64,000 nucleotides of DNA, taken from contig CAMXCT020003441.1 in NCBI GenBank assembly GCA_947184155.2, positions 1-64,000 on the forward strand. The letters run 5' to 3'. The stretch's first letter is position 1; each line of letters begins with the position of its first letter. This DNA is from Cladocopium goreaui (Eukaryota; Sar; Dinophyceae; Suessiales; Symbiodiniaceae). A program made the translations under genes and the position numbers. Below, piece after piece: positions 14,708 through 57,999 of this stretch. A model generated the notes under the pieces. That model saw nothing but the letters and a program-made list of their open reading frames with translations. It ran no database searches and was not told the origin of the DNA.

Positions 14708-15018
14708 TGATTAATGTTTAGATAGACAGATAGAAAGATAGATAGGCAGGCAGACAGATAAATAGATAGATACATAGACAGAAAGATAGACAGACAGAAA
14801 GACAGATACACAGACAGATAGATAGACCGATAGGTAGACAAAAGCTAGGTAGATAGATCGATAGACAGGTAGCCAGATAGACAGACATATAGATAGTCAG
14901 ATAGACAGACAGATAGTCACATAGATAGAAAGAAAGATCGGTGAATAGTAGAATCGTCGGATAGATAATCAGATAGATAGTCAGAAAGATGGATAGATAG
15001 ACAGATAGAAAGATAGGC

Positions 15019-15057
<39 letters not shown>

Positions 15058-15357
15058 CAGATAGACAGATAGACAGATAGAAAGATAGATCGATAGATAG
15101 ATCGCTAGATAGATCGATCGATAGATCGATAGATAGATCGATCGATAGAGCGATCGATAGATAGATAGATAGATCGATCGATAGATAGATAGATAAGGAA
15201 GGTAGATAGATAGATAAGGAAGGTAGATAGATAAATAGCTATAACTAGCTTTAAATAGAAAGATAGATAGAGACAGATAAACAGCCAGACGGATACATAG
15301 ATAGACAGACAGATAGAGAGATAAACAGCTAGATAGACAGATAGGTGGACAGATAGA
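14708..15357. repeat. GATA/GACA tetranucleotide satellite
   Basis: About 650 bp of GATA units with GACA, GATC and GAAA variants, ending abruptly at the left edge of the E module (15358). The satellite truncates E relative to its other copies. Confidence 0.95.
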
Positions 15358-15677
15358 TTGTGCGACCGGTGCGGCTCCACTTCGTTTGGCGCTCGAGTGG
15401 TCCCCATTGTCAGCGCTGCGCGGAAGTGATCTTTGAAAGATTGAGCGCGCTGTGCCATTGTGTTTGGTGCTCCAGGCTTGCAGTTTGCATTGGAATAGCT
15501 GCTTTCATGTTGTGATTGCAGTCTTGGTTGACGCAGTTGTAGTGGGATTTGCAGGGCAGTGATTGGCGATCGCAGTGGAATTGCCTCGCGAAGGTGATGC
15601 TTTAGGGTTAGGAATCGCATGAAACCCTATATGCTTTTCCGTACAAAGCGTGTCTCGGGGACGATGTGGGGAACCTT
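15358..15677 (+). repeat. Module E, copy 1 (boundary repeat of the tandem transposon array)
   Basis: A core of roughly 270 bp, beginning TTGTGCGACCGGTGCGGC and ending near 15631 (GCATGAAACCCTAT), recurs inverted at 25540-25843 and direct at 33998-34275. A further roughly 47 bp (ATGCTTTTCCGTACAAAGCG through GGGGAACCTT) is shared only with copy 2. It lies directly against the terminal repeat of arm A. It has no open frame of note. It could be host flank duplicated with the element, or a terminal module of the element. Confidence 0.85.
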
Positions 15678-16519
15678 CTTTGGAGGAACTTTGAACTTAT
15701 GGTACTTAGCAAGAGCTTATGAAGAACTTATCAAGATGCTATGTTAAGTCCATCGTAAGTTCATCGTAAGTTCTTCATAACTTTTAGTATGTGTTTTTTT
15801 TTCTGTTTTTGCTTTTTCAGTTTTATTTAGGAATTTGAGTGGTTTTTAGAAGGACTTGTGTATATGATTGCAACATGTGCTGCACAATTGTGGATCCACG
15901 GTTTGCCTATTTTTCATCAGGGCAAAGCGGTAGAAGCGCAAATGTTTTGCAGGACCGGATAGTGCGGCAATCATCTTAAGAGCCACACTCCGGATCTATC
16001 CCGTCGAATTAAGCGAAAAGGCTCTTGGCCTTTCAGCATGTGCAGCGGCATTAGAGCCAATTTTCCACCTTCTCTTTTCCACTTGGGAAAACGATGGTTA
16101 TATGCGTTATATGCACTGTGCCAATGGAGTGGTTGCACCAGTAAAAACTTGTCGTTAACTTTTTTCGGAAGCCACACATCCATGCACTTCAGCACAGGAA
16201 GTTTTGGAGACGCGTAGGAAGGTGCCTCGCGCAAATTCGACACATCCGACTTCCAACCCACTAGCAAACAATGCCGACTTGGGCAGGCCAACCCTTTGGG
16301 CTGTTTCTGGCTGTTCACGTAGAACACCGAGCACTTGGCCCGTCCATCTTTCCTTCGGTTCAGGATTGGAAAGTTCCATTTCGGTCAAATGCAGCAGCAC
16401 GCTCTTAGCGTAACCTTCCAATTTCGAAATCATGGGGCCAACATACCGTTTGAAGAGACGATGCTTTCGCTCACCTACGTAGCAATCGATATGTCGCTGC
16501 CACCTTTGCATTTGCGCGG

Positions 16520-18911
16520 AAGGAATTGTATTTGATTCAGGGCTGTTTGAATTTGATTTGGGGTTTGAATTCTAGTTTGCAGTCATGGTTTTAGATACTG
16601 TAAAATTTATTTTATATATTTATAATTATATATATATATATCCAAGTTTTCCGTCGTACTAAATGCTAGGGAGATATATTTGTATCCTGATCCGTTCTGG
16701 TTTCCCGGAACAAGACTTCTGGAGTCCGATTTGTTTTCAAAATCGCCCGCTGCATAATATTTACTATAACGGCCCCATAGATTCCAGTTATATATCCATC
16801 TAGATTCTAGACTATCCCCGAACGTTTTCAATTTCATATTCATCATTATTTTCCCATGTCAGACTTTATTTCCTCGTTCGTTCATCAGATTTTATTATAT
16901 GGGTTCCACCGTTAAGGATTCCACCCCCCTCGTTTTGGATTTGGTTCTCTCCTTACGTTTTAAACCCCCAACACTTGCAAATGCATTCCCCATTTAAATT
17001 TCCAAATATTGCTTTTCAAATGTTTGCCTCATTTTTTGTTTGAAAGAATCCCAGTATCATGCGGCGATTATATATATATATATGTGTGTGTGTACCATAT
17101 ATATATATATGTTTATTCCAGGTCCATTATTTTGAGTAGATGTTATGTCATCAAAGCTTCCTATTTCAAGTTGTTAAATGATGTATTTGAATATAGTATG
17201 AATATTTGGTTTTAATGCAACTAAATATTGATGAATCCAAGCTTTGGACGCCACGACGGCGCAAAGTACAATATGTTGATCTATATGCCACGACGGCGCA
17301 AAGTACAGTACGCCGCTGAATGATCATAAGTGTTCACTAAGTTTTTATCATAAATTTCTAGTTTGAGATCCTGTTCACGCGATAAAATGTAACTCAAGAG
17401 AGTTGTGGTAAACATCCGATATTGATGATATGTTCAATGCTGAGGGCTGAATGGGATTGTCCAGTGCACAAAACGCGCCCCCCGAGTTAGGACGAAAAAA
17501 AAACTCAGCCTAAATCCTGGGGTTGAGGCGGGGTTCGGCCTATCTTGGGGGGTACAAAACGCGCGGCTGACTTAGGACGAAATGTACCTCACACCCTAAA
17601 AAAAACAAGTTTCAGCCGATCTCAGGGGGTACAAAACGCGCAGCTGAGTTAGGACGAAAAAAATTTTATCGATCCTAAATCCAGGGGTTGAGATGGGTTT
17701 CAGCCGATCTTGGGGGGTACAAAACGCGCAGCTGAGTTAGGACGAAGTGTACCTCAGACCCTGGATATAGGACGAAAAAAAAATTATTGATCCGATCTCG
17801 GGGGTACAAAACGCGCAGCTGAGTTAGGACGAAAACCTATAATTTCCTTAATTTCCATGATTCTGTTCAGTGGATTCGGGGTCGTTGAACTTGAATTTAG
17901 GACGAATAAAATTTTATTCATCCTATCTCCGGACCCATTATCTACCGCAGGACGCACTTTGGTATTTTTTGGGGGTTGCTTTAAAGCTTTGGGGCATTAA
18001 TCCATAGGTTTTTGATGGTTTCTGTTCAATTAATTCGGGATCGTTCAACCCGGATTTAAGACGAAAAAACATCAGCCTATCTGAGGACCCATTACCAACC
18101 GCAGGACGCACTTTGTTCTTATTTTTGCTGCCGGCTTGCAGCCCCACAATACAGGCGGCACAGGCCCACCCACAAAATATGCAAACTAATGATATCAACT
18201 TTAATATGTTTTAATTTAGGGTTAACCCGTTGTAGAAGGTTAGAAAATTTCATATTTATATTTCTGCGCGTTCAGCACAATGCAAAATGTTTGGGGAAAA
18301 TCATCTATTCAACCCGTGGGAGATCCTCAGATTTAATCAACGCCACCTATCCTTTTTTTTGTATCGTAAATGGATCCTGATGGTTGCCATTGGATGGATT
18401 CCCTGCTGGTTGGATCCAAATAGATAAGCGGTTAAGATTTCATTAGTTATTGATATCGTGCCTCTTAATCTCATGTTGTGTTTGGCACTAAGTTTCATGA
18501 TTCCTTCCAATTCCTTTGGTTTGGTGTTGGAAAGAATGTTGCACACCTTGAATTAAAATACCATATCCCAGTATCAATGTACGTGCAAAACCCAAGAAAA
18601 ATCAAACAAAGCAAGACCTTGTGTATACGTGCATCTTCGGAGTCGTCGCATTTATACACCTGCATGCTATGAAATGAGCGTAACGATATGCTATCAATAT
18701 ATATATATATATGATATGATTCCCTTGGTCCTGGAATTAGATGCCAAAAAGTAACTTATCTGCGACTTAATTAAGATAAAATGAAGTAGTTAAATTCAAA
18801 CACATTCAAATAATATTCAAATATAATGGCTCCTTGCCAAACAATCTGCATACATATGGATCCACCTAAAGAAATCAAATTCCAGAGACCCACTTTCAAT
18901 CGCAAAACCTT
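16520..18911. mobile_element. 2392-bp non-coding insertion in the transposase gene, with 4-bp flanking repeats
   Basis: The right-hand arm is uninterrupted here, so this segment is an insertion in the left arm. GCGG lies on both sides (16516-16519 and 18912-18915), consistent with a 4-bp target duplication, and the segment starts AAGG and ends CCTT, a very short inverted terminus. It contains AT tracts, a tandem array at 17465-17835 and no convincing gene. A non-autonomous DNA element is a reasonable reading, though the terminal match is short. Confidence 0.6.
17465..18110 (+). repeat. ACAAAACGCGCAGCTGAGTT tandem array inside the insertion
   Basis: Five copies of a unit built around ACAAAACGCGCAGCTGAGTT followed by AGGACGAAA, roughly 70-120 bp apart, occupy 17465-17835. 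Degenerate AGGACGAA and GCAGGACGCACTTTG pieces continue to about 18115. A shorter pair, GCCACGACGGCGCAAAGTAC, occurs at about 17250 and 17287. Confidence 0.8.
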
Positions 18912-20653
18912 GCGGTCAGATGCAAAGCATAGTGGGCTTTGGGTCTGGTGTGCGAAGCGCCGTGCGCTTCTTGGAAGCGCATCATGTGCTGTCGCTGCAG
19001 AGGCATCAGTGCAGAACTATTGGCGACGTCAATTTTGCATCGTTGCAAACAACGAACGACGTCATACAATGCGGCAAGAGATGCGCAGGCAGTGACCATT
19101 GGCTCTACCTCTGCAAGGACTTCGATGCAAAAGGCCCAAAGAAGTGGCAGCATCGTGCTACACGCATTGGCGTCACCTCTGTATAATCTTGCTCATATCT
19201 GAAAAGTTTCTCATTGACCGCTAAAGTCGGTGGCTGATGGCCATGCGCAGCTGACCAAACGATATTGGTCCATTGCTGAAGCAACGACACTGAGTACCCG
19301 CAATCGACAAACCGCGTGTACCAGCAGCCGATCTCCTGAGCCACCATACCTCCACTTTGAGATTGATGCATTGCGTCCAGATACAAACTGTCCATTTTAA
19401 TCCAACCAGACAAGCAGTCAGATGAGAATATGGATTTGCTGAGAGAATCGGCGTTCCATCCCAACAGAGTTTCCACTTGGGAGAGCTCCTTTTTCGTTCG
19501 ACACGTGGCCACACGTCGTTGCACAGCTGCCAAGCCATCATCCGTCTGTTGAACAAATTTCGACGGAGAACTTTCAGAAATATCGTATCCCAGCGGAAAA
19601 GTTCGGCCTAGCGACAAAACGTTGATGCAATGACAACAACATTTAACGCCAGCTGAACCTTTGGCACCTGTTACGCCACGGAGACCTTCATGGTCGTTCA
19701 AAAGCAGGACACGTTCAATGAAGAAAAGATGCGCACTCTCACCAAAACATACGGTGACTCCATGCTCTGTTTCCTCCCGCGAACTTTCCAGCACATGTCG
19801 CATGACCTCCGCGTAGGAAGTCTCATGCGTGGTCACATCGTCAGCTCGGACGGCTGAGACTGGTAACCAGAGGCTATCGACAAAAAGAACTGGTAGCTCC
19901 AAGAAAGAAGCATACACCAGATTTGTTTTGCGAGGGTGTCTAGCATGCAGGACATTGCCAGGATTCGCTTCATCACTGAAGATGATGAGCGTGAGCTGAC
20001 CCTGTGCTCTTTGCAGAGCTGCTTGCAGCAAGGCAGCAAAAAACAGAGACCGCTGCACCTTTTCCGCCACCAGCATCGAAAGGGAATTTAAATACACGGT
20101 CAGGCCCTTAGGCCCTGGAAGTGTTACACTTTGCAGCATCATATGCGTAACCGGAAACTTGACGGCCGGTGCGTGGCACGTAGCCACACCCTTGTCATCA
20201 TCCCGCAGCCTGCTGATGACTTCTCGGCGCTTAGCCCGGGAATCTCTCGCAGACATGCGAATTGCTCGGCCGGTGTTGCATCCACAAGAAGCTTACGCTT
20301 CATTGCCTTTCTTAATTAAGGGAACGCAGACAAGCCAAACGGCTGCGGGAACATTGTTTTCCTATATATAGATAGCAAAGGATCATGCAGAGGGGTTTCA
20401 GAAAGCTTGGTGAGAGCGAGGCGGTGAAACAAGCAGCAGCCTATAAACGTTTCCTTCCAGGCACACGCCTCATGCAGTTAAAGACCGTCTTTTTTTTCGA
20501 CACAGAATCGGCGATCACGCGACAAGGTCATCGCGCGGCAAGCGCATACACTATAGTTACACCCCAGTAGAGTGGATGCCACCTGCTATTGGATTGGCCC
20601 GTGGCCACAAGAGCCCATGGCACACAGGATGACGGCTTGGGCGTTCCAAAGCC

Positions 20654-21154
20654 TCACGGCTCGCTTTTGGTACGGCGGCGCTTGGCCGGTTGCTCCCCTG
20701 CTGTGGCGGCCGCTTTGGCCTTGGCCTTCGGCTTCGGAAAGCTCTCCCGTAGAGACTTTTGGGCCTCGGTGATTTGTTTCAGAAGAACCTTCACATCTGC
20801 CGCGTCACACGGCAAGGTCGTCAGCGCCTCCTGGGCATCTTCCCCTTTCTCTTTGTTCTGATCCTGCAAGCGTACAGCGTCCTTGGCTGCTCGGATCCAC
20901 GTTTTCGCCTTCCCGGGGCTTTCCTGACACAGTGTGAGGGCTTCTTGTTCTGCTTCTGGCACCGTTTCTCCCTTGGCAATCACCTTGGTGAGGGAGGTTT
21001 TCGCTTGGGTCAGCGGTCCGAGGCACTTGGCCGCCCAGGTTGCGATCTTCACATTCTCCGTGATGACTTTCTTTGCCTCTTGGGCCTTCTTGCGCTCAGC
21101 TTTCTTTCCATCCGCCTCATCCTTGCCACTTGGGCCAGCCAGCGGAATATCCAT
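20654..21154 (-). CDS. Lys-rich helical accessory protein, left copy (166 aa)
   Basis: Intact ORF starting MDIPLAGPSGKDEADGKKAE, with long Lys/Glu/Ala helices (TWAAKCLGPLTQAKTSLTKV, then NKEKGEDAQEALTTLP) and a basic end (PAKRRRTKSEP) that looks like a nuclear-localisation signal. It is nearly identical to 22550-23050. It lies just upstream of the transposase on the same strand. In the other copy the frame immediately upstream (RNNATKKKGTKGND) is open, so the true start may lie further 5', fused to or recoded from the Cys-cluster protein. No enzymatic motif seen; a DNA-binding or transposase-partner role is a guess. Confidence 0.7.
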   Translation of the reverse strand: MDIPLAGPSGKDEADGKKAERKKAQEAKKVITENVKIATWAAKCLGPLTQAKTSLTKVIAKGETVPEAEQEALTLCQESPGKAKTWIRAAKDAVRLQDQNKEKGEDAQEALTTLPCDAADVKVLLKQITEAQKSLRESFPKPKAKAKAAATAGEQPAKRRRTKSEP

Positions 21155-21186
21155 GTCGTTCCCTTTAGTTCCCTTCTTCGCCGTTC

Positions 21187-21600
21187 CAGTCTACGTGGCA
21201 TGGAGTTCGCGAATCGCTAGAAAACGCGTGCATCCACGCGATGCCGCAGGATCGGCGACTATTGTCGTGACTGGTGGCGTTGCTTCTCTACGGAGAATGG
21301 CATGCAACGCCGTTGGATCTGCCGCCGCATCCGAAGCTACCTGGCTTCTGCCTCGTTCCAGCGCAATTGGTCCAGCAGCCAAGTGCAGACCACTGGATCT
21401 ATCTTCTGCGCTGGGAATGCTTTGGTGACAGGCACGCGTCTGCGCGCAAAGTTGTGCACCTTGGCGTGGCATCTCTCTACGCGGGAGAATCGACACAGGG
21501 AATTCCTGTTGTGTCGCAGGGCCGCGTGGCTCGTGCGAAAGTTGCAGCAGCGTTGGCGGCAAGAGCGTCAGACCTCGCAAGTCGAGGCGATGAAACCTGT
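21187..21600 (+). pseudogene. 3' fragment of the B/C-spanning gene, 5' end removed
   Basis: The frame QSTWHGVRESLENACIHAM starts directly at the module edge without its N-terminal 30 codons, and meets TGA after CGACTATTGTCG. Copy 2 has two more bases there and reads on as RLYCRDWWRC. After that site the frame STENGMQRRWICRRIRSYLA is open as far as the RENRHREFL region. This fragment is a by-product of the inversion break at 21180. Confidence 0.65.
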
Positions 21601-21649
21601 CCTATGAGGACGATTCTTTTTGTGAGTGGCTCCTGCTGTGTCGTTGCTT

Positions 21650-21890
21650 TTCTGGATGACTGCGGACTGACTGCGGCGTGACTGCGGATGACTGCGGAAA
21701 AATTGCCATGGATTCGGTGTGACTGCGGCCGTTGACTGCGGACTGAAACATAGCTGTGTCTAATGGCAACGTTGACAGCGGTTGACTGCGAGTTCATAAA
21801 CTAGCATATATCTATAGGCAGCAGTCTTGACTGCGGTTGACTGCGGATAGATTCGACCTCAGACGGCATGACTGCGGGCTTTCACGTCAA
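21650..21890 (+). promoter_or_regulatory. GACTGCGG iteron-like array, copy 1
   Basis: Nine exact GACTGCGG octamers plus near matches (GACAGCGG, GACTGCGA), most preceded by T, in about 230 bp between the end of the B/C-spanning gene and the start of the Cys-cluster gene. The array is conserved at 29750-29975. The position in an intergenic gap of an otherwise gene-dense element suggests a binding array (promoter, enhancer or transposase site) rather than coding sequence. Confidence 0.6.
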
Positions 21891-22014
21891 CTCTTAGTGT
21901 CTTAGTTTTCCACGTTGATTCCGTCTCTGTCTTCCCTCAGATTTGGCTCGTGTTTTAGCGGCGTGTTCGGTGTGTGTGTGTGTGCGCGACGTGCAGTTTC
22001 ACCTGTAGTTGAGC

Positions 22015-22539
22015 ATGGCTGAAACGACGGCTCAAGAAGCAAACGCTAAGTGCGTTATGTGTGGCCTTTGCTATGGTAACGCCCAAGGGCGACAACATGG
22101 CCGCTCATTCAAATGTTGGAACTGCCTCAACGTGGAGCAGACTCTGCGTCGACACCTCGGTACCACCGCTGACTTGGCGGAGTTCTCCCAAGAGGAGACA
22201 GAGAATTTTTTTCAGGCTGCCAAGAGCGCCAAGGCCACGGATGGCAAGGTCACGTGGCAAACTATCCGCGCAACTCTCTTGAGGCGCATGACCGAGTCGA
22301 AGATATCCAAGTTCGAGACCACTGTCCAAGTAGAAGAACTGCCGATGAGCGTCCTTCTGACCCGTGGCTGGCACGAGGAAGTTGTGCGGAGGTTCCCTTC
22401 CGTACACTCGGAGGCGCATGGCTGCGAGCTGTACTCTGCAGTGCCGGTTCGCACGTGCACATGGGGCGAAGCGTATCAGAGCTGTGAGCAGATTATTTTA
22501 GAACGTGAGAAACAATGCCACCAAGAAGAAGGGAACTAA
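22015..22539 (+). CDS. Cys-cluster protein of dinoflagellate type (174 aa), intact copy
   Basis: ATG at 22015 (MAETTAQEANAKCVMCGLC). The N-terminus holds CVMCGLC and FKCWNC, a likely zinc-binding module, followed by VEQTLRRHLG, an FFQAAKSAK helix, KVTWQTIRATLL and TESKISKFETTVQVEELP. I recognise this as a repetitive dinoflagellate gene type of unknown function. The ORF crosses the native C/A junction and stops at TAA 22537 (EKQCHQEEGN). The adjacent +1 frame continues through KKKGTKGND into the Lys-rich helical protein, so a longer fusion via a frame change is possible. The second copy (30102-30548) has lost 26 bp and is broken. Confidence 0.75.
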   Translation: MAETTAQEANAKCVMCGLCYGNAQGRQHGRSFKCWNCLNVEQTLRRHLGTTADLAEFSQEETENFFQAAKSAKATDGKVTWQTIRATLLRRMTESKISKFETTVQVEELPMSVLLTRGWHEEVVRRFPSVHSEAHGCELYSAVPVRTCTWGEAYQSCEQIILEREKQCHQEEGN

Positions 22540-22549
22540 AGGGAACGAC

Positions 22550-23050
22550 ATGGATATTCCGCTGGCTGGCCCAAGTAGCAAGGATGAGGCGGATGGAAAG
22601 AAAGCTGAGCGCAAGAAGGTCCAAGAGGCAAAGAAAGTCATCACGGAGAATGTGAAGATCGCAACCTGGGCGGCCAAGTGCCTCGGACCGCTGACCCAAG
22701 CGAAAACCTCCCTCACCAAGGTGATTGCCAAGGGAGAAACGGTGCCAGAAGCAGAACAAGAAGCCCTCACACTGTGTCAGGAAAGCCTCGGGAAGGCGAA
22801 AACGTGGATCCGAGCAGCCAAGGACGCTGTACGCTTGCAGGATCAGAACAAAGAGAAAGGGGAAGATGCCCAGGAGGCGCTGACGACCTTGCCGTGTGAC
22901 GCGGCAGATGTGAAGGTTCTTCTGAAACAAATCACCGAGGCCCAAAAGTCTCTACGGGAGAGCTTTCCGAAGCCGAAGGCCAAGGCCAAAGCGGCCGCCA
23001 CAGCAGGGGAGCAACCGGCCAAGCGCCGCCGTACCAAAAGCGAGCCGTGA
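22550..23050 (+). CDS. Lys-rich helical accessory protein, right copy (166 aa)
   Basis: MDIPLAGPSSKDEADGKKAE to PAKRRRTKSEP; differs from 20654-21154 by a few residues (S/G, V/A, L/P). It starts 11 bases after the stop of the Cys-cluster gene and about 350 bases before the transposase, on the same strand. The product is predicted to be helical and very basic at its end. The stretch 23051-23400 that follows holds no gene. Confidence 0.7.
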   Translation: MDIPLAGPSSKDEADGKKAERKKVQEAKKVITENVKIATWAAKCLGPLTQAKTSLTKVIAKGETVPEAEQEALTLCQESLGKAKTWIRAAKDAVRLQDQNKEKGEDAQEALTTLPCDAADVKVLLKQITEAQKSLRESFPKPKAKAKAAATAGEQPAKRRRTKSEP

Positions 23051-23399
23051 GGCTTTGGAACGCCCAAGCCGTCATCCTGTGTGCCATGGGCTCTTGTGGC
23101 CACGGGCCAATCCAATAGCAGGTGGCATCCACTCTACTGGGGTGTAACTATAGTGTATGCGCTTGCCGCGCGATGACCTTGTCGCGTGATCGCCGATTCT
23201 GTGTCGAAAAAAAGACGGTCTTTAACTGCATGAGGCGTGTGCCTGGAAGGAAACGTTTATAGGCTGCTGCTTGTTTCACCGCCTCGCTCTCACCAAGCTT
23301 TCTGAAACCCCTCTGCATGATCCTTTGCTATCTATATATAGGAAAACAATGTTCCCGCAGCCGTTTGGCTTGTCTGCGTTCCCTTAATTAAGAAAGGCA

Positions 23400-25248
23400 A
23401 TGAAGCGTAAGCTTCTTGTGGATGCAACACCGGCCGAGCAATTCGCATGTCTGCGAGAGATTCCCGGGCTAAGCGCCGAGAAGTCGTCAGCAGGCTGCGG
23501 GATGATGACAAGGGTGTGGCTACGTGCCATGCACCGGCCGTCAAGTTTCCGGTTGCGCATATGATGGAGCAAAGTGTAACACTTCCAGGGCCTAAGGGCC
23601 TGACGGTGTATTTTAATTCCCTTTCGATGCTGGTGGCGGAAAAGGTGCAGCGGTCTCTGTTATTTGCTGCCTTGCTGCAAGCAGCTCTGCAAAGAGCACA
23701 GAGTCAGCTCACGCTCATCATCTTCAGTGATGAAGCGAATCCTGGCAATGTCCTGCATGCTAGACACCCTCGCAAAACAAATCTGGTGTATGCTTCTTTC
23801 TTGGAGCTACCAGTTCTTTTTGTCGATAGCCTCTGGTTACCAGTCTCAGCCGTCCGAGCTGACGATGTGACCACGCATGAGACTTCCTACGCGGAGGTCA
23901 TGCGACATGTGCTGGAAAGTTCGCGGGAGGAAACAGAGCATGGAGTCACCGTATGTTTTGGTGAGAGTGCGCATCTTTTCTTCATTGAACGTGTCCTGCT
24001 TTTGAACGACCATGAAGGTCTCCGTGGCGTAACAGGTGCCAAAGGTTCAGCTGGCGTTAAATGTTGTTGTCATTGCATCAACGTTTTGTCGCTAGGCCGA
24101 ACTTTTCCGCTGGGATACGTTGATATTTCTGAAAGTTCTCCGTCGAAATTTGTTCAACAGACGGATGATGGCTTGGCAGCTGTGCAACGACGTTTGGCCA
24201 CGTGTCGAACGAAAGGAGCTCTCCCAAGTGGAAACTCTGTTGGGATGGAACGCCGATCTTCTCAGCAAATCCATATTCTCATCTGACTGCTTGTCTGGTT
24301 GGATTAAAATGGACAGTTTGTATCTGGACGCAATGCATCAATCTCAAAGTGGAGGTATGGTGGCTCAGGAGATCGGCTGCTGGTACACGCGGTTTGTCGA
24401 TTGCGGGTACTCAGTGTCGTTGCTTCAGCAATGGACCAATATCGTTTGGTCAGCTGCGCATGGCCATCAGCCACCGACTTTAGCGGTCAATGAGAAACTT
24501 TTCAGATACGAGCAAGATTATACAGAGGTGACGCCAATGCGTGTAGCATGATGCTGCCACTTCTTTGGGCCTTTTGCATCGAAGTCCTTGCAGAGGTAGA
24601 GCCAATGGTCACTGCCTGCGCATCTCTTGCCGCATTGTATGACGTCGTTCGTTGTTTGCAACGATGCAAAATTGACGTCGCCAATAGTTTTGCATCTGAC
24701 CGCGCGAATGCAAAGGTGGCAGCGACATATCGATTGCCACGTATAGGTGAACGAAAGCATCGTCTCTTCAAACGGTATGTTGGCCCCAAGATTTCGAAAT
24801 TGGAAGGTTACGCTAAGAGCGTGCTGCTGCATTTGACCGACATGGAACTTTCCAATCCTGAACCAAAGGAAAGATGGACGGGCCAAGTGCTCGGTGTTCT
24901 ACGTGAACAGCCAGAAACAGCCCAAAGGGTTGGCCTGCCCAAGTCGGCATTGTTTGCTAGTGGGTTGGAAGTCGGATGTGTCGAATTTGCGCGAGGCACC
25001 TTCCTACGCGTCTCCAAAACTTCCTGTGCTGAAGTGCATGGATGCGTGGCTTCCGAAAAGTTAACGACAAGTTTTTACTGGTGCAACCACTCCATTGGCA
25101 CAGTGCATATAACGCATATAACCATCGTTTTCCCAAGTGGAAAAGAGAAGGTGGAAAATTGGCTCTAATGCCGCTGCACATGCTGAAAGGCCAAGAGCCT
25201 TTTCGCTTAATTCGACGGGTAAGATCCGGAGTGTGGCTCTTAAGATGA
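23400..25248 (+). pseudogene. DDE-like transposase gene, right copy, several lesions
   Basis: Uninterrupted by the 2.4-kb insertion but damaged otherwise. A 2-bp loss in an A run near 24213 shifts the frame (CRTKGALPSG instead of CRTKKELSQ). CGA became TGA at about 24549. About 85 bp upstream of TTGCATCTGACCGC (near 24692), encoding the HMMRFQEAH...PKAHYALHL region, are missing. The candidate acidic positions and KCCCHC are present, and a GYVDISES variant has three extra bases relative to the left copy. The C-terminal frame ends SGVWLLR at 25248. The shared frame change after PMRVA is present here too. Together with the left copy it defines the gene; neither copy alone is intact. Confidence 0.7.
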
Positions 25249-25539
25249 TTGCCGCACTATCCGGTCCTGCAAAACATTTGCGCTTCTACCGCTTTGCTCT
25301 GATGAAAAATAGGCAAACCGTGGATCCACAATTGTGCAGCACATGTTGCAATCATATACACAAGTCCTTCTAAAAACCACTCAAATTCCTAAATAAAACT
25401 GAAAAAGCAAAAACAGAAAAAAAAACATACTAAAAGTTATGAAGAACTTACGATGAACTTACGATGGACTTAACATAGCATCTTGATAAGTTCTTCATAA
25501 GCTCTTGCTAAGTACCATAAGTTCAAAGTTCCTCCAAAG

Positions 25540-25843
25540 AAGGTTCCCCGCATCGTCCCCGAGACACGCTTTGTACGGAAAAACATATAGGGTTTCATGC
25601 GATTCCTAACCCTAAAGCATCACCTTCGCGAGGCAATTCCACTGCGATCGCCAATCACTGCCCTGCAAATCAAGACTGCAATCACAACATGAAAGCAGCT
25701 ATTCCAATGCAAACTGCAAGCCTGGAGCACCAAACACAATGGCACAGCGCGCTCAATCTTTCAAAGATCACTTCCGCGCAGCGCTGACAATGGGGACCAC
25801 TCGAGCGCCAAACGAAGTGGAGCCGCACCCGTCGCACAAACAA
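25540..25843 (-). repeat. Module E, copy 2 (between the two transposon copies)
   Basis: Reverse complement of copy 1, including the roughly 47-bp extension next to arm A. It has lost about 20 bp (GTTGACGCAGTTGTAGTGG) found in copies 1 and 3. Both sides abut transposon terminal repeats: arm A ends at 25539 and arm B begins at 25844. Confidence 0.85.
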
Positions 25844-26040
25844 CTTTGGAGGAGCCTTGAACTTAGACAACTTACAAGTTCATCCTAACATATGTTATAG
25901 CCTTCGTAACCTAGGTTATAACATCCATAAGTTCATCGTAACTTCTTGAAAAATGGTTACTTATAACATAGTTACGGAACTTAGATGCAGAAGGGTTAAA
26001 GGTTACAAAGAACTTACGAAGAACTTAGGGAAGTTACGTT
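25844..26040. promoter_or_regulatory. Subterminal AACTTA/TAAGTTC cluster, left transposon end
   Basis: Repeated AACTTA, TAAGTTC, GTTACGA and TATAAC words in both orientations within 200 bp of the terminus. Equivalent clusters lie at 15690-15790, 25430-25535 and 33795-33990. Subterminal repeats of this kind bind the transposase in CACTA and hAT-type elements; here that role is inferred only from position. Confidence 0.55.
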
Positions 26041-26073
26041 TTTTTGTGCAAAAAGTAAAAGAAGATTTGAAGA

Positions 26074-27198
26074 ATGGGAAAAAACAAGAGAAAAACACAT
26101 GTTTTGTGAAGATTTTGGTTCAAGAAGAAATGGTAGCCTTGGAGAAGCAGTTAGAGGCATCCCAACGCTTTTTGGGCGGGGTTCGTTCGTTGGCGTCCTA
26201 CGAGGACATCCAGCAAAAGCAACAAAGGAGGCTTCTGATTGCCTTGGGGAAATCTAAGGATCTGAGTACGTCTCAGGCTGCTTCTTTTGTAGAAGCGATT
26301 GGTTCCAGGCTGTGGTCAGAAGCAGCGGTGGAAGAACTGCAGCGACAGGTTGCTGCAAAGACGTCGCAAGTCGAGGTCGAGAGTGAGCGCAGACGAATGC
26401 AAGACTTTAGTCAGACTATTCACTTCCTCACACAGAATCTGGCGACCATGATATTGGAAGGAAAAGCCCCCGCCGACACTGTCTTGCGAGCCTTGTGTTT
26501 GCACGCTGGCCGGATGTCACTATGTGTGCCATCGGAACAAACTATTGCAACCTTTGTGACACTGGCGAATTGGCAGCTATTTTGTCATGGAATGACGGAA
26601 AAAGGAGAAATATATGTTGTTGCAGCGGCAGAAGCAATTTGTGCGAAAATGTTTGGCTGCTTTGGACGATGTGACCAATCCACTGTCTGCATTGCCACTG
26701 GATTTTGGACAGCTACCTGCGCATCTTCGTCAACCTGCCTTTAGAGAGAGTTTGCCAGTGAATATGGCAGAGAGCGGTGTGGCCATGATGCAGGCAGCAA
26801 GGACGATGCCTATGCGGGGGACTAACCGCGCATTGGGTTCAGCGCTGTCTACGGGACAGCCAAAGGAAGATCCCACGGCTGAGTGGACTACGCGTGCAAT
26901 CACAGCGGCAGTGCAGGGAGTTGTGGCTGCGAGCCATTCATTGTTGGGGGGTGCTGGAGTGGCAGCTACGGCTGCGAATGCGACGCACGTGGTTCCAAGT
27001 ATGCTTGTGGAGGCACGCCCTCCAGAAATGTTGGCTTTGACCAATGCGCCGCACGCAGAGATGGAAGCGAAGGAGTCGACGCCGCATGGGAATACGTCTA
27101 CGGGACGTATGGCAGTGGCTCAGAGTGCTCCACCGCAAGACGGTGTGGACGTGGAGCATAATCTAGGAGACGTTGAAGCGCAATTGGCTGCTTTATAA
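26074..27198 (+). pseudogene. Coiled-coil protein with overlapping second frame, left copy
   Basis: The right copy shows the intended start MGKKQEKNTCFVKI; here one A is missing after the ATG, so the first frame is open only from upstream (25953). Residues such as EEMVALEKQLEASQRFLGG and VEELQRQVAAKTSQVEVE predict coiled coils. After KGEIYVVAAAEAICAK the frame changes. The downstream part has its own ATG at 26614 (MLLQRQKQFVRKCLAAL) and runs through Ala/Thr-rich sequence to DVEAQLAAL and TAA at 27198. The same frame change occurs in the other copy, so it may be recoding, a small intron or an overlapping gene. Function unknown; the place as first gene and the coiled coils are reminiscent of a structural protein. 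Confidence 0.6.
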
Positions 27199-27203
27199 GG
27201 GAT

Positions 27204-27575
27204 GTGGCACCAAAGGCGAAGGCGAAGAGCAAAGCTAAGAGCTTCTGTAAGAGGCCGGCAACAAAAGCGAGTCTGAAGCGTCCTGCAGCTGCAGTGGCAC
27301 CTATGGGGTGTTCGGCACCCAAGGGTTCCGCAGCTGGTGAGCGTAAAAAGCACGGCAAGACATCTACGGGATGTCGTATCAGCGCCAAAGGACGGCAAAG
27401 CCTATAAGGGCAAGACTGAGGCTACGGCCACATCTTCGCGTGAGGCCAGGCGTCGAGCCATTTTGGCAGTGGTGCCAAGAAGGTGCAGCTGCAGTTTAAG
27501 AACGGCTGCTCCAAGTGCAGGTACACAAACTGTATCGTTTCCTGCTGGCGATCACGCGGCTTCGTCGCACCGTAG
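27204..27575 (+). pseudogene. Lys-rich protein with dinoflagellate Cys motif, left copy (frame broken)
   Basis: The frame APKAKAKSKAKSFCKRPATK starts at a GTG five bases after the upstream stop; no ATG was found at that position in either copy. It breaks near 27390 (GCRISAKGRQSL stop) through small indels, and the 3' part survives in other frames. The right copy (32638-32267) is open throughout and shows the diagnostic C-terminal motif. See that entry. Confidence 0.6.
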
Positions 27576-27990
27576 GTTATCCATTGTACAGAAAACGACC
27601 CAGGGATTATCATCTTGAGTTAAAAAATATGCTGCTTGTACGTGTTGGGTTTTTGGCAGTTTCAAGAACATGTTGCGGGTATATGGATTTCATGTGGAAG
27701 ATATAATGTGCAATAAAGTTCATACATGACCAATCTGTGCGGCACAGATTCGAGGAGAAAATGCATGGCAGCATGACTTCGGTTAAAAAGGGATTGGTGG
27801 CTCGAGCTTCTAGGGCATCTCCCCTTTTTTTCCCCCTTGGGTTGCAGCCGTGGTTGGGGAGGTCTGGTTCTATGTGCACGGGGCGCAAAATATTCGTATG
27901 TGTAAGTTGCTTCACTCGTGCCACTGGTATATATATATATATATGTTGTTTTTTTGGAAGTTGTTTCCCTCTGTCACCCTGAAGGACGGC

Positions 27991-28973
27991 ATGGCGGGCG
28001 AGAAGGAGAAGGACGCGGAGTCGTATATTCCTATGTGACAGAGGATGAGGAGATGAATGAGCCCGCTGCTGAACCGGCACCGCCACGCACGGAGGCCACA
28101 GCGCTACGGACGGACTCTACAGCGCCACGTGCGCGATCAGGTCCTCCAGGGTGCGCGGCCAAGTCTGCAGCGACACCTGGTAGGCGTGCAGGTCGGAGCC
28201 AGGACTCGAGTAGCGATAGAGAACGTGGTCGCCGGAGGCCTCCTTCGCTGGCAAGTCCGGTTCGCGTGGACAGGTCACCGAGACGTAGCGTTGCACCTGC
28301 AAGACCCACGAGGTCTGTGCCGCCGGCTCGGTTGGATGAGCCCCTGCCAGACACGGCGAGCAGGCGGCCACCAGCTGGAGAAAGTGGGGGTGTTCGTGGC
28401 AAAGGAAAGGGCTCCAGCGGCTATGGCAGGCGCTATCAATCGTGCCCGCATTGCTGGCATGACGTCGCCGTGACCCCACGCGGGTCTGGGTTGTCGCAGC
28501 ACATGTGGACAGTGCATTGCATGGCAACTCTATTCAATATTCCCAAGGGGACATATGCACAATGGCGCGCCCAGGAAATCAAAGACCGTCGCGAAACGGA
28601 GTGGGAGGCTCCTGAAGCAGTGTTTCCGGCTCGGAGTGCAGCCCATCGTGACAGGTTGGAAGATTTGCAGAGAGAAGAGGAACTGATGCAGGACGAGGGC
28701 GAGGACGACGTTCGCAAGTCGGACGACACGAAGAACAAGAAGAAGAAGAAGAAGAAGAAGAAGAAGAAGAAGAAGAAGAAGAAGAAGAAGAAGAAGAAGC
28801 GTCGTCGACGTCATCACGGGTCGGATCCTTCACCGCATCGTTCCCGCAAGCGGGATCGTCGCCCTCCTAGCAGCGACCGCTCAGATGGGGGGGGCCACAA
28901 GGCCAAGCGCCGTGGTGAAGAAAGCAAGGATATGGTGTGGGTGCAGGTGCCACGTGCATCGCTGGCCAAGTAG
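27991..28973 (+). pseudogene. RS-rich C2H2-type protein, left copy (2-bp insertion near start)
   Basis: ATG at 27991 gives MAGEKEKDAESY, then an extra AT (TCGTATATTCC) shifts the frame before the long open part YVTEDEEMNEPAAEPAPP. It continues with Arg/Ser/Pro-rich sequence, a single finger CPHCWHDV...GLSQHMWTVHC (C-x2-C-x15-H-x4-H), IPKGTYAQWRAQEIKDRR, an acidic stretch, a poly-Lys run encoded by (AAG)n, an Arg/Ser tail and the stop after VPRASLAK. A nuclear nucleic-acid-binding protein is likely from composition. The other copy has its own, differently placed AT insertion at the same region. Confidence 0.65.
28730..28800 (+). repeat. (AAG)n microsatellite coding poly-Lys
   Basis: About 22 AAG triplets inside the RS-rich gene; the inverted copy at 31050-31101 is shorter. 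The length difference stays in multiples of three, so both keep frame here. Confidence 0.9.
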
Positions 28974-29181
28974 GTCTCTGTAGCTGCGGAAGGATGACCT
29001 CGAGCACTCTGGGAAAAAAGGAAGTACGTCTGGATGGCATGGGCTGTGGGCTGAGTGTGGTATAAAGAGTTTTCGTATATAGGGCCGAGGTTTTGCTCCG
29101 CTCTTTTTTTCCGCAGCTGCTTTACATGTTTGTCTCCGCAGCTGTTTAGTTCGGTTCGTTCCCGCCGGCGTTTCTCCGCTG

Positions 29182-29690
29182 ATGTCTGTTGACGTTTCCT
29201 TCTCTCTGCGGCCAAGTGCCTTGGAAGAGGTCATCCACGCGATGACGGCGACAATGCCAGCACATCCGCTGGAGCCGTTCCAGTCTACGTGGCATGGAGT
29301 TCGCGAATCGCTAGAAAACGCGTGCATCCACGCGATGCCACAGGATCGGCGACTATATTGTCGCGACTGGTGGCGTTGCTTCGGTATACCGAGAATGGCA
29401 TGCAACGCCGTTGGATCTGCCGCCGCATCCGAAGCTACCTGGCTTCTGCCTCGTTCCAGCGCAATTGGTCCAGCAGCCAAGTGCAGACCACTGGATCTAT
29501 CTTCTGCGCTGGGAATGCTTTGGTGACAGGCACGCGTCTGCGCGCAAAGTTCTGTGCCTTGGCGTGGCATCTCTCTACGCGGGAGAATCGACACAGGGAA
29601 TTCCTCGGTGTCGCAGGGCCGCGTGGCTCGTGCGAAAGTTGCAGCAGCGTTGGCGGCAAGAGCGTCAGACCTCGCAAGTCGAGGCGATGA
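29182..29690 (+). pseudogene. B/C-spanning protein gene (frameshifted), native junction
   Basis: ATG at 29182 (MSVDVSFSLRPSALEEVIHA). The frame crosses from arm B into C without interruption (AHPLEPFQSTWHGVRESLEN) and reads RLYCRDWWRCF. The segment GGTATACCG at about 29382 then differs from copy 1 (TCTACGG) and moves the frame, so the intended tail (NGMQRRWICRRIRSYLA ... RPRKSRR, stop 29690) lies one frame away. Trp/Arg-rich; no family recognised. Continuity across the B/C edge is the best evidence that B-C is the native order. Another 5' fragment remains at 30587-30679 in inverted arm B. Confidence 0.6.
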
Positions 29691-29749
29691 AACCTGTCCT
29701 ATGAGGACGATTCTTTTCGTGAGTGGCTCCTGCTGTGTCGTTGCTTTTC

Positions 29750-29975
29750 TGGATGACTGCGGACTGACTGCGGCGTGACTGCGGATGACTGCGGAAAAAT
29801 TGCCATGGATTCGGTGTGACTGCGGCCGTTGACTGCGGACTGAAACATAGCTGTGTCTAATGGCAACGTTGACAGCGGTTGACTGCGAGTTCATAAACTA
29901 GCATAATCATAGGCAGCAGTCTTGACTGCGGTTGACTGCGGATAGATTCGACCTCAGACGGCATGACTGCGGGCT
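29750..29975 (+). promoter_or_regulatory. GACTGCGG iteron-like array, copy 2
   Basis: Same octamer array as at 21650-21890, with nearly identical spacing, between the end of the B/C-spanning gene and the Cys-cluster gene. Confidence 0.6.
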
Positions 29976-30101
29976 TTCACGTCAACTCTTAGTTTTCCAC
30001 GTTGATTCCGTCTCTGTCTTCCCTCAGATTTGGCTCGTGTTTTAGCGGCGTGTTCGGTGTGTGTGTGTGTGCGCGACGTGCAGTTTCACCTGTAGTTGAG
30101 C

Positions 30102-30548
30102 ATGGCTGAAACGACGGCTCAAGAAGCAAACGCTAAGTGCGTTATGTGTGGCCTTTGCTATGGTAACGCCCAAGGGCGACAACATGGCCGCTCATTCAAA
30201 TGTTGGAACTGCCTCAACGTCGAGCAGACTCTGCGTCGACACCTCGGTACCACCGCTGACTTGGCGGAGTTCTCCCAAGAGGAGACAGAGAATTTTTTTC
30301 AGGCTGCCAAGAGCGCCAAGGCCACGGATGGCAAGGTCACGTGGCAAACTATCCGCGCAACTCTCTTGAAAGTTCGAGACCACTGTCCAAGTAGAAGAAC
30401 TGCCGATGAGCGTCCTTCTGACCCGTGGCTGGCACGAGGAAGTTGTGCGGAGGCTCCCTTCCGTACACTCGGAGGCGCATGGCTGCGAGCTGTACTCTGC
30501 AGTGCCGGTTCGCACGTGCACATGGGGCGAAGCGTATCAGAGCTGTGA
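30102..30548 (+). pseudogene. Cys-cluster protein gene, copy 2, frameshifted by a 26-bp deletion
   Basis: Identical start to 22015 (MAETTAQEANAKCVMCGLC) and the same Cys pairs. After TIRATLL the bases GGCGCATGACCG through GATATCC of copy 1 are missing and the frame runs into KVRDHCPSRRTADERP and a stop. Its natural 3' end is also lost because C is followed by inverted arm B here. Confidence 0.75.
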
Positions 30549-30935
30549 GCAGATTATTTTAGAACGTGAGAAACAATGCCACCAAGCGGATGTGCTGGCA
30601 TTGTCGCCGTCATCGCGTGGATGACCTCTTCCAAGGCACTTGGCCGCAGAGAGAAGGAAACGTCAACAGACATCAGCGGAGAAACGCCGGTGGGAACGAA
30701 CCGAACTAAACAGCTGCGGAGACAAACATGTAAAACAGCTGCGGAAAAAAGAGCGGAGCAAAACCTCGGCCCTATATACGAAAACCCTTTATACCACACT
30801 CAGCCCACAGCCCATGCCATCCAGACGTACTTCCTTTTTTCCCAGAGTGCTCGAGGTCATCCTTCCGCAGGTACAGAGACCTACTTGGCCAGCGATGCAC
30901 GTGGCACCTGCACCCACACCATATCCTTGCTTTCT

Positions 30936-31849
30936 TCACCACTTGGCCTTGTGGCCCCCCCCATCTGAGCGGTCGCTGCTAGGAGGGCGACGATCCCGCT
31001 TGCGGGAACGATGCGGGGAAGGATCCGACCCGTGATGACGTCGACGGCGCTTCTTCTTCTTCTTCTTCTTCTTCTTCTTCTTCTTCTTCTTCTTCTTCTT
31101 GTTCTTCGTGTCGTCCGACTTGCGAACGTCGTCCTCGCCCTCGTCCTGCATCAGTTCCTCTTCTCTCTGCAAATCTTCCAACCTGTCACGATGGGCTGCA
31201 CTCCGAGCCGGACACACTGCTTCAGGAGCCTCCCACTCCGTTTCGCGACGGTCTTTGATTTCCTGGGCGCGCCATTGTGCATATGTCCCCTTGGGAATAT
31301 TGAATAGAGTTGCCATGCAATGCACTGTCCACATGTGCTGCGACAACCCAGACCCGCGTGGGGTCACGGCGACGTCATGCCAGCAATGCGGGCACGATTG
31401 ATAGCGCCTGCCATAGCCGCTGGAGCCCTTTCCTTTGCCACGAACACCCCCACTTTCTCCAGCTGGTGGCCGCCTGCTCGCCGTGTCTGGCAGGGGCTCA
31501 TCCAACCGAGCCGGCGGCACAGACCTCGTGGGTCTTGCAGGTGCAACGCTACGTCTCGGCGACCTGTCCACGCGAACCGGACTTGCCGGCGAAGGAGGCC
31601 TCCGGCGACCACGTTCTCTATCGCTACTCGAGTCCTGGCTCCGACCTGCACGCCTACCAGGTGTCGCTGCAGACTTGGCCGCGCACCCTGGAGGACCTGG
31701 TCGCGCACGTGGCGCTGTAGAGTCCGTCCGTAGCGCTGTGGCCTCCGCGCGTGGCGGTGCCGGTTCAGCAGCGGGCTCATTCATCTCCTCCTCATCCTCT
31801 GTCACATATAGGAATACGACTCCGCGTCCTTCTCCTTCTCGCCCGCCAT
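30936..31849 (-). pseudogene. RS-rich C2H2-type protein, right copy
   Basis: ATG at 31849 (MAGEKEKDAESYSY), then an extra AT in CCTATATGTGACAG shifts the frame before the long open part (VTEDEEEMNEPAAEPAPP). The finger CPHCWHDV...HMWTVHC, acidic stretch, shorter poly-Lys run and Arg/Ser tail follow. A 5-bp loss near 30960 creates an early stop (GGGHKAKW), removing the last 20 or so residues found in the left copy. Both lesions differ from those of the left copy. Confidence 0.65.
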
Positions 31850-32266
31850 GCCGTCCTTCAGGGTGACAGAGGGAAACAACTTCCAAAAAAACAACATATA
31901 TATATATATATACCAGTGGCACGAGTGAAGCAACTTACACATACGAATATTTTGCGCCCCATGCACATAGAACCAGACCTCCCCAACCACGGCTGCAACC
32001 CAAGGGGAAAAAAAGGGGAGATGCCCTAGAAGCTCGAGCCACCAATCCCTTTTTAACCGAAGTCATGCTGCCATGCATTTTCTCCTCGAATCTGTGCCGC
32101 ACAGATTGGTCATGTATGAACTTTATTGCACATTGTATCTTCCACATGAAATCCATATACCCGCAACATGTTCTTGAACCTGCCAAAAAACCAACACGTA
32201 CAAGCAGCATATTTTTTTAACTCAAGATGATATAATCCCTGGGTCGTTTTCTGTACAATGGATAAC

Positions 32267-32638
32267 CTACGTTGCGACGAAGCCGCGTGATCGCCAGCAG
32301 GAAACGGTACAGTTTGTGTACCTGCACTTGGAGCAGCCGTTCTTAAACTGCAGCTGCACCTTCTTGGGCACCACTGCCAAAATGGCTCGACGCCTGGCCT
32401 CACGCGAAGATGTGGCCGTAGCCTCAGTCTTGCCCTTAGGCTTTGCCGTTCCTTTTGCGCCGATACGACATCCCGTAGATGTCTTGCCGTGCTTTTTACG
32501 CTCACCAGCTGCGGAACCCTTGGGTGCCGAACACCCCATAGGTGCCACTGCAGCTGCAGGACGCTTCAGACTCGCTTTTGTTGCCGGCCTCTTACAGAAG
32601 CTCTTAGCTTTGCTCTTCGCCTTCGCCTTTGGTGCCAC
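32267..32638 (-). CDS. Lys-rich protein with dinoflagellate Cys motif, right copy (open, 123 aa)
   Basis: The frame APKAKAKSKAKSFCKRPATK is very basic, then PKKVQLQFKN followed by GCSKCRYTNCTVSCWRSRGF near the C-terminus. The C-x2-C-x4-C-x3-C pattern is, to my knowledge, a common short domain in dinoflagellate proteins, often at C-termini; its role is unknown and zinc binding is plausible. The initiator is unclear: the first codon here is GTG in both copies and no upstream in-frame ATG is present, so splicing or recoding from the preceding frame is possible. Confidence 0.65.
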   Translation of the reverse strand: MAPKAKAKSKAKSFCKRPATKASLKRPAAAVAPMGCSAPKGSAAGERKKHGKTSTGCRIGAKGTAKPKGKTEATATSSREARRRAILAVVPKKVQLQFKNGCSKCRYTNCTVSCWRSRGFVAT

Positions 32639-32643
32639 ATCCC

Positions 32644-33769
32644 TTATAAAGCAGCCAATTGCGCTTCAACGTCTCCTAGATTATGCTCCACGTCCACACC
32701 GTCTTGCGGTGGAGCACTCTGAGCCACTGCCATACGTCCCGTAGACGTATTCCCATGCGGCGTCGACTCCTTCGCTTCCATCTCTGCGTGCGGCGCATTG
32801 GTCAAAGCCAACATTTCTGGAGGGCGTGCCTCCACAAGCATACTTGGAACCACGTGCGTCGCATTCGCAGCCGTAGCTGCCACTCCAGCACCCCCCAACA
32901 ATGAATGGCTCGCAGCCACAACTCCCTGCACTGCCGCTGTGATTGCACGCGTAGTCCACTCAGCCGTGGGATCTTCCTTTGGCTGTCCCGTAGACAGCGC
33001 TGAACCCAATGCGCGGTTAGTCCCCCGCATAGGCATCGTCCTTGCTGCCTGCATCATGGCCACACCGCTCTCTGCCATATTCACTGGCAAACTCTCTCCA
33101 AAGGCAGCTTGACGAAGATGCGCAGGTAGCTGTCCAAAATCCAGTGGCGATGCAGACAGTGGATTGGTCACATCGTTCAAAGCAGCCAAACATTTTCGCA
33201 CAAATTGCTTCTGCCGCTGCAACAACATATATTTCTCCTTTTTCCGTCATTCCATGACAAAATAGCTGCCAATTCGCCAGTGTCACAAAGGTTGCAATAG
33301 TTTGTTCCGATGGCACACGTAGTGACATCCGGCCAGCGTGCAAACACAAGGCTCGCAAGACAGTGTCGGCGGGGGCTTTTCCTTCCAATATCATGGTCGC
33401 CAGATCCTGTGTGAGGAAGTGAATAATCTGACTAAAGTCTTGCATTCGTCCGCGCCCACTGTCGACCTCGACTTGCGACGTCTTTGCAGCAACCTGTCGC
33501 TGCAGTTCTTCCACCGCTGCTTCTGACCACAGCCTGGAACCAATCGCTTCTACAAAAGAAGCAGCCTGAGACGTACTCAGATCCTTAGATTTCCCCAAGG
33601 CAATCAGAAGCCCCCTTAGTTGCTTTTGCTGGATGTCCTCGTAGGACGCCAACGAACGAACCCCGCCCAAAAAGCGTTGGGATGCCTCTAACTGCTTCTC
33701 CAAGGCTACCACTTCTTCTTGAACCAAAATCTTCACAAAACATGTGTTTTTCTCTTGTTTTTTTCCCAT
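32644..33769 (-). pseudogene. Coiled-coil protein with overlapping second frame, right copy
   Basis: ATG at 33769 (MGKKQEKNTCFVKILVQEE), with the seven-A run intact, reads through VEELQRQVAAKTSQVEVD to GEIYVVAAAEAICAK. Coding then moves to the second frame, ATG at 33228 (MLLQRQKQFVRKCLAALND), ending DVEAQLAAL at 32644. This copy has the intact beginning; the frame change is shared with 26074-27198. The second frame is Ala/Thr/Met-rich (VQGVVAASHSLLGGAGVAAT). Confidence 0.65.
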
Positions 33770-33997
33770 TCTTCAAATCTTCTTTAAAAGAAAAAACGTA
33801 ACTTCCCTAAGTTCTTCGTAAGTTCTTTGTAACTTTTACTTTTAACCCTTCTGCATCTAAGTTCCGTAACTATGTTATAAGTAACCATTTTTCAAGAAGT
33901 TACGATGAACTTATGGATGTTATAACCTAGGTTACGAAGGCTATAACATATGTTAGGATGAACTTGTAAGTTGTCTAAGTTCAAGGCTCCTCCAAAG

Positions 33998-34275
33998 TTG
34001 TTTGTGCGACGGGTGCGGCTCCACTTCGTTTGGCGCTCGAGTGGTCCCCATTGTCAGCGCTGCGCGGAGGTGATCTTTGAAAGATTGAATGCGCTATGCC
34101 ATTGTGTTTGGTGCTCCAGGCTTGCGGTTTGCATGGGAATAGCTGCTTTCATGTTGTGATTGCAGTCTTGGTTGACGCAGTTGTAGTGGGATTTGCAAGG
34201 CAGCGATTGGAGATTGCAGTGGAATTGCTTCGTGAAGGTGATGCTTTAAGGTTAAGAATCGCATGAAACCCTATT
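33998..34275 (+). repeat. Module E, copy 3 (right boundary of the array)
   Basis: Same orientation as copy 1, with about a dozen substitutions. It starts directly after the terminal repeat (TTGTTTGTGCGACGGGTG) and loses similarity after GCATGAAACCCTAT, lacking the 47-bp extension of copies 1 and 2. This is what is expected for the outer right flank of the tandem array. Confidence 0.85.
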
Positions 34276-36185: not shown

Positions 36186-37040
36186 ATGACTAGACGACGG
36201 ATGGCCCGAGAGCGAAGAGGATCATATATACTCAGATGTTCGATAGAGTTACAATTTTTGCTGAGAAAGATGAGAAGATGTAAGATGAGAAGATGTAAAA
36301 GGAAAAGATGTAAGATAGGAACAGGAGAAGAAGTAAGAAGAGCAAATGTAAGAGTAGAAGATATAAGAGGAGAAGATGTAAGAGGGGAAAATGAGAAGAT
36401 GTTAGAAGAGAAGATGTAAGAGGAGAAGATGTACCACGTGCACAGGCACACAGACACGTGCGAGCGCTGTTGCACCGGACCACTCTTTTGACACGCAGGA
36501 GCTCTCGCACATAGAAGTGCATCAGCGAACAAGCGGCGATTAACCGTGACACACTTTTACACGCAGACACTCAGACATGGAAGCGCCTTTTCACACAAAC
36601 GCTTGTAGATACGAATGCTTTTGCACACAGTCACTTTTACACACAAACACCTTTACACACAGACGCTTTCACACACAGACAGTTTTACACACAAACACTT
36701 TTACATACAGACGCTTTTACCTACACACGCTTTTACACACTAACACTTTCACACACAGACACTTTTACACACAGAGACTTTTACACACGAACGCTTTTAC
36801 ACACAAATACTTTTACACACGGACGCTTTTACACACAGATGCTTTTACACACAAATGCTTTTACACACGATCACATTTACACACACACACACTTTTGCAC
36901 ACAACAACTTTTTACACACGGACCCTTTTGCGCACAGACCCTTTTACGCACAGACCCTTTTACACACAGACGCGTTTACACACAGACGCTTTTGCACAGA
37001 AAGACTTTTACATACAGACGCTTTTTGCAAACGCGGCTAA
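36186..37040 (+). repeat. Compound satellite, first copy: ARERRG end motif, AAGATG array, CTTTTACACACAGACG array
   Basis: Starts with GACTAGACGACGGATGGCCC then GAGAGCG (frame TRRRMARERRG). 36265-36432 is a degenerate array of GAAGATGTAA units. After about 130 bp of unique sequence, 36590-37030 is a 16-bp array around CTTTTACACACAGACG. Because 16 is not a multiple of three, the array is open in all frames and yields FTHRRFYTQTLLHTDA-type repeats; these are not evidence of a gene. Confidence 0.85.
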
Positions 37041-57949: not shown

Positions 57950-57999
57950 GGCTTTCGAGCCAGTGTCACAGAAAGTCACTGTCTGTTTTCTTGTGTTGG

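Follow-up and report, generated by a model that had tools for sequence, protein, structure and literature searches.

Two long palindromes in a Cladocopium goreaui contig: a probable tandem transposon pair with one inverted segment

How does a genome come to hold two long palindromes side by side, both closed by the same loop? The question is raised by bases 1-64,000 of the 64,640-bp contig C3441 of the Cladocopium goreaui assembly (the window hereafter), in which an earlier note, made from the sequence alone, had described two giant palindromes between positions 15358 and 34275 and ascribed them to a single inversion inside a pair of transposons. Having compared the window with itself and searched the assembly (1,165,616,438 bases or 1.17 Gb in 6,202 contigs), we arrive at a closely related view: a tandem pair of transposons, a 9.4-kb segment of which was later inverted, very probably explains both palindromes.

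Module order and native order

Self-BLAST of the window bears out the module order read before (E, A inverted, C, A, E inverted, B, C, B inverted, E) and the common direction of both C copies; together with global alignments it places the module coordinates within a few bases of where they had been set. Module A (19006-21179) returns inverted at 24699-22525 with 98.9% identity, module C (21180-22525) in direct orientation at 29274-30586 (96.1%), module B with the tail of E (25587-29270) inverted at 34274-30585 (96.9%) and module E (15358-16519) inverted at 25839-24700 (96.6%), the E tail having a further direct copy at 34002-34274 (94.5%). Matches as long and as close as these lie far outside chance expectation. 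Other parts of the description need amending. Rather than nested, the palindromes are adjacent and overlap by ~0.25 kb (25587-25839). The three E modules are all present and in order, but the third comprises just 273 of ~1,160 bp. E, moreover, is not a module of the element but a composite of the transposon's final 0.84 kb and satellite sequence outside the transposon, and between the first E and the first A the map had passed over 2,486 bp (16520-19005), made up of a 2,392-bp insertion and 94 bp of element sequence.

Among 45 single inversions tried between module boundaries, with no distinction made between the two C copies, reversal of 21180-30586 is the only one that restores two head-to-tail units, as the earlier note had proposed, and for this fit the C copies must point the same way. 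What is restored are indeed two copies of one element, but unequal ones, as one carries the 2.4-kb insert, the other has lost ~90 bp and the breaks have cost 3 bp. In global alignments, substitutions amount to 18/2,170 sites (0.83%) in module A, 15/1,309 (1.15%) in C, 41/3,402 (1.21%) in B and 13/1,138 (1.14%) in E. Divergence (87/8,019 sites in all; 56 transitions, 31 transversions) shows no detectable heterogeneity among the four modules (chi-square p 0.60), which agrees with a single duplication, since that is what such an event predicts.

Seven other contigs (a lower bound) match both A and C, namely C118, C3157, C302, C2047, C982, C424 and C6108; five were mapped module by module, and C982 and C424 were judged by match coordinates. 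C138 matched C alone, and C877, C1744, C6067 and C3237 matched A alone. We took 200-bp probes centred on each junction and compared them with the fetched loci outside C3441, leaving out nine loci of C3441 itself. The C/A junction (22525/22526) is crossed in all seven contigs and the B/C junction (29273/29274) in six, so that both, which had been put forward as native, are found as such in other copies. Neither of the joins that would have been made by the inversion behaves in this way: the probe for J2 (C against inverted B) is crossed in none of these loci, and the probe for J1 (inverted A against C) splits at the join wherever it matched, save in C302. The lack of inverted joins elsewhere rests on the genome searches with A and C, which give minimum counts, and on the fetched loci that were probed. 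The earlier note had suggested looking for a contiguous B-C-A element in other assemblies, and had regarded palindromic A-C-A or B-C-B as the usual form, with B-C-A never occurring, as the outcome that would speak against it; other copies in the same assembly do hold B-C-A as an unbroken series, and the matched loci show neither A-C-A nor B-C-B.

The transposon, its satellite target and the tandem pair

What the element is can be read best from C118 and C3157, in which B, C, A and E lie consecutively on one strand (B-C-A-E). The two are ~94-96% identical to each other; against the window, the main alignments of the modules show 74-83% identity, with 69% over one part of B. Both elements measure 7,791 bp between CTTTGGAGG tips. 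Such terminal inverted repeats stand at both ends in C118, C3157 and both window copies; they are bordered by 2-bp target duplications, TA in C118, TA in C3157 and AA in the window copies. Since the two relatives share these tips with TA at both sides of each, while their outer flanks differ, the element is, judged on sequence, a cut-and-paste-type DNA transposon with terminal inverted repeats.

Copy 1 in the window extends between tips at 25844 and 15678 and spans 10,245 bp with its insert included. Its module B (25844-29273, plus strand) starts with CTTTGGAGG and holds further open reading frames (ORFs); module C follows (29274-30586, plus). Module A lies on the minus strand (18912-21179) with a transposase-like ORF at 19105-20256 and with 94 bp of native element sequence (18912-19005) that C118 and C3157 match in the corresponding position. 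The 3′ end (15678-16519, minus) is recognised by its tip motif at 15678 and by 82% identity to C118 and C3157. Between these parts sits the 2,392-bp secondary insertion (16520-18911), with ends AAGG...CCTT and an apparent 4-bp duplication CCGC (ends read by eye); in the gap that it occupies only the neighbouring 94 bp match C118 and C3157. Copy 2 spans 7,771 bp between tips at 33989-33997 and 25531-25539. It consists of module B (30587-33997, minus), which ends at the 5′ tip, module C (21180-22525, plus), with which the inverted segment starts, module A (22526-24699, plus) and the 3′ end (24700-25539, plus) with the tip CCTCCAAAG; from the region of the copy 1 insert it has lost ~90 bp (length read by eye), the native 94-bp stretch that copy 1 retains being absent here.

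Sequence outside the tips is a satellite of the ~319-bp family. It has at least 77 matches in the genome, 3 of them inside the window (40 of 117 candidates were scored), and these include arrays with a 319-bp period on C935 and C2737. Three units accompany the pair: one at the 3′ side of copy 1 (15358-15677, minus), which aligns to both arrays; a spacer between copy 2 and copy 1 (25540-25843, plus); and one at the 5′ side of copy 2 (33998-34274, minus). When the 5′ flank of copy 2 is joined to the 3′ flank of copy 1 and one AA is removed, the resulting empty site aligns at 79% to both arrays over 597-598 columns, in the case of C2737 without a gap at the join, from which we conclude that the transposon inserted once into the satellite with a 2-bp AA duplication. 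This same site borders each copy at either end; the pair hence looks like the duplication of one insertion. The middle unit tracks the 3′-flank unit at almost every difference (read by eye), and the 5′ unit is ~5.5% different from both others (by eye), the outer units differing at 15 of 273 positions (p 1e-6 against the modules). Taken together, we infer that the tandem pair probably arose through satellite-mediated unequal exchange between flanking units rather than through two insertions.

An LTR (long terminal repeat) retrotransposon with a shared LTR was also considered and is rejected, as the 273-bp direct repeat is satellite outside the tips. In C118 and C3157 it was not found over the ~1.5 kb beyond the tips, and no reverse transcriptase or integrase Pfam domain was detected in the 10 ORFs of the region that were scanned.

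The inversion joins and rival accounts

Join J1 (21179/21180, A inverted against C) is blunt. J2 (30586/30587, C against B inverted) has 2 bp of microhomology (AG), and 3 bp (GGA) are gone from the B/C break (joins read by eye). The two joins are reciprocal, that is, they use the same pair of element coordinates within 4 bp, and the chance of such agreement under two independent events is ~1.3e-6 (simple uniform model, four break points pairing). Within 60 bp of the breaks, inverted matches reach 7 bp at most, a length attained by a fraction of 0.476 of 500 random pairs. We accordingly reject inversion driven by homology (non-allelic homologous recombination) or by a recombinase, inverted similarity at the breaks being at random level. 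Reciprocal joins, 0-2 bp of microhomology and a 3-bp loss fit one two-break inversion by end joining.

We therefore picture the following course of events. A 7.8-kb DNA transposon (B-C-A followed by the transposon part of E, with CTTTGGAGG tips and a 2-bp target duplication) would have inserted into a satellite of 319-bp period, and unequal exchange between the satellite units on either side would then have made a second transposon, accompanied by one unit, in head-to-tail arrangement with the first. Two later double-strand breaks, one where B meets C in one copy and one where C meets A in the other, may have released the 9.4-kb middle segment, which end joining would have restored in reverse, leaving a blunt join, a join with 2-bp microhomology and three missing bases. 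Both palindromes and their two co-directional C loops would follow from this inversion as a matter of geometry.

Several observations weigh against a tandem pair with one inverted segment. With C1 and C2 both reversed another single inversion fits, which makes the shared direction of the C copies just partly diagnostic. Both joins are read from the assembly sequence. Among the relatives, C6108 is the exception at the B/C junction and its read-through at C/A is weak (63% over 120 columns), while in C302 a weak alignment (72%) overruns J1 by 17 bases, the remaining half of the probe still aligning at its native place. Finally, a protein-database search with the ORF that crosses J1 (20934-21425) scored 414 candidates and returned none at E 0.01, which is uninformative because an antisense frame such as this one may never have been annotated.

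The rival that survives best, albeit an unlikely one, is an artefact of library or assembly, in which a plain tandem pair, or some other arrangement, had its repeat copies misoriented by a hybrid assembler. An 18.9-kb structure with copies 1% different on a contig as short as 64,640 bp invites the suspicion, all the more as the paper on the C. goreaui genome (PMC9412976) gives MaSuRCA hybrid assembly of PacBio reads from 10-20 kb fragments with Illumina data. The arms, however, differ at 87 of 8,019 sites (the 56 transitions and 31 transversions above) and can hardly be one molecule read twice; two wrong joins would need the same two element coordinates; and a head-to-tail pair would give an assembler no long inverted repeats to be misled by. 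Less probable still is replication-based template switching, in which one complex event would have produced the inverted segment during the making of the second copy. Microhomologies of 0 and 2 bp are also compatible with it, yet it does not require both switches to share their coordinates, and this is what is observed within 4 bp. That the inversion was directed by an enzyme, through recombinase sites or through cryptic cuts by the element's own transposase at two points, seems to us very improbable: two element copies do contain the breaks, each of which coincides with an edge of one 1.3-kb module, but the exact tip motif is absent at both break points, inverted matches near them do not exceed the random 7 bp and no other inverted copy occurs among the fetched loci. 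As for two unrelated palindromes formed separately, each has arms and a loop when seen alone, but they share loop C down to its ends, a coincidence (chance ~1.3e-6, as given above) that to our minds leaves this account an almost negligible probability, and palindromic copies are absent from the fetched loci.

Transposase-like proteins, neighbouring sequence and known systems

The transposase-like ORF belongs to a family with 42 members at E 0.001 among the 8,000 candidates scored. EukProt identifiers such as Skav208641 occur among them, and we take this prefix to denote Symbiodiniaceae genomes. The alignments, A2 with 12 of 19 proteins and A3 with 24 of 46 protein identifiers, exclude fragments and a number of frame-broken members. 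Invariant in the 24 aligned members are D206, H207, E208, C225, C228, D313, H316, H461, H465 and E483 (P0008 numbering), a pattern that presumably resembles DDE transposases with a zinc-binding insert. For 10 ORFs of the region and for 5 relatives, Pfam searches that admitted E values up to 1 gave only matches above E 0.02, all below the curated cut-offs, a PDB sequence search returned one row at E 0.12 for A2 and none up to E 1 for A3, and a scan of viral contigs with P0001 produced 2 pattern matches, 0 of which were confirmed. Our literature search brought up no description that we recognised as that of this element, and the transposon looks undescribed. Whether it is the type of an undescribed dinoflagellate DNA transposon superfamily – 7.8 kb long, with CTTTGGAGG tips, a TA/AA duplication, a 640-residue transposase-like protein without significant Pfam or PDB sequence match and a large extra gene region – is a tentative suggestion that we would sooner doubt than endorse.

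Some further observations concern the element and its surroundings. The 2,392-bp insertion has internal 165-bp tandem repeats and imperfect inverted ends (AAGGaaTTG / AAGGttTTG). In the B ORF, a run of GAA (lysine-coding) accounts for a length difference between the copies, with ~23 repeats at 28730-28799 in copy 1 and ~19 at 31050-31107 in copy 2. C982 (locus L018), C2047 (L017) and C424 (L019) score equally to A (76%) and to part of C (74%); perhaps they are recent copies of a related element, or else a duplicated region. The outer end of copy 1's 3′ satellite unit is adjoined by a 640-bp degenerate TAGA microsatellite (14719-15358). Elsewhere in the window, minisatellite arrays at 36551-37025, 40590-40800 and 40927-41579 recur inverted at 51238-52288 and 49998-50444, in an order roughly mirrored around 44-46 kb. 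Their longest arms measure 351 nucleotides at 81%, among 25 listed out of 379 inverted pairs of at least 80 nucleotides. The longest ORF listed (56387-57979, minus strand, 530 residues) is without a Pfam match at E 0.001; the 8 ORFs searched outside the region of the palindromes gave none at this threshold.

A confusing pair of long palindromes thus becomes readable as three simple steps – satellite insertion, unequal exchange and one inversion – each of which would leave a trace that can be checked. The locus also cautions that terminal direct repeats flanking a transposon may be satellite rather than LTRs, and the element may offer a lead to a dinoflagellate transposon family.

Among known systems, the element has terminal inverted repeats, 2-bp target duplications and independent insertions in common with DDE cut-and-paste transposons, and its ORF family appears to share their conserved D, CxxC, D, H-x3-H and E residues; it departs from them in lacking a significant Pfam or PDB match and in its large additional gene region B. 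As to the rearrangement, ectopic recombination needs inverted copies. The inversions associated with transposons that arise by this route, of which Galileo in Drosophila is an example (PMC2775673), resemble ours in having transposon copies at both breakpoints, whereas here the ancestral copies would have been direct and the breaks are non-homologous. The inversion is rather of the ordinary two-break, end-joining type, with which it shares reciprocal joins, 0-2 bp of microhomology, a 3-bp loss and homology at the breaks not above chance. It differs from an ordinary case in its position inside a tandem pair, where it gives rise to two long palindromes sharing one loop.

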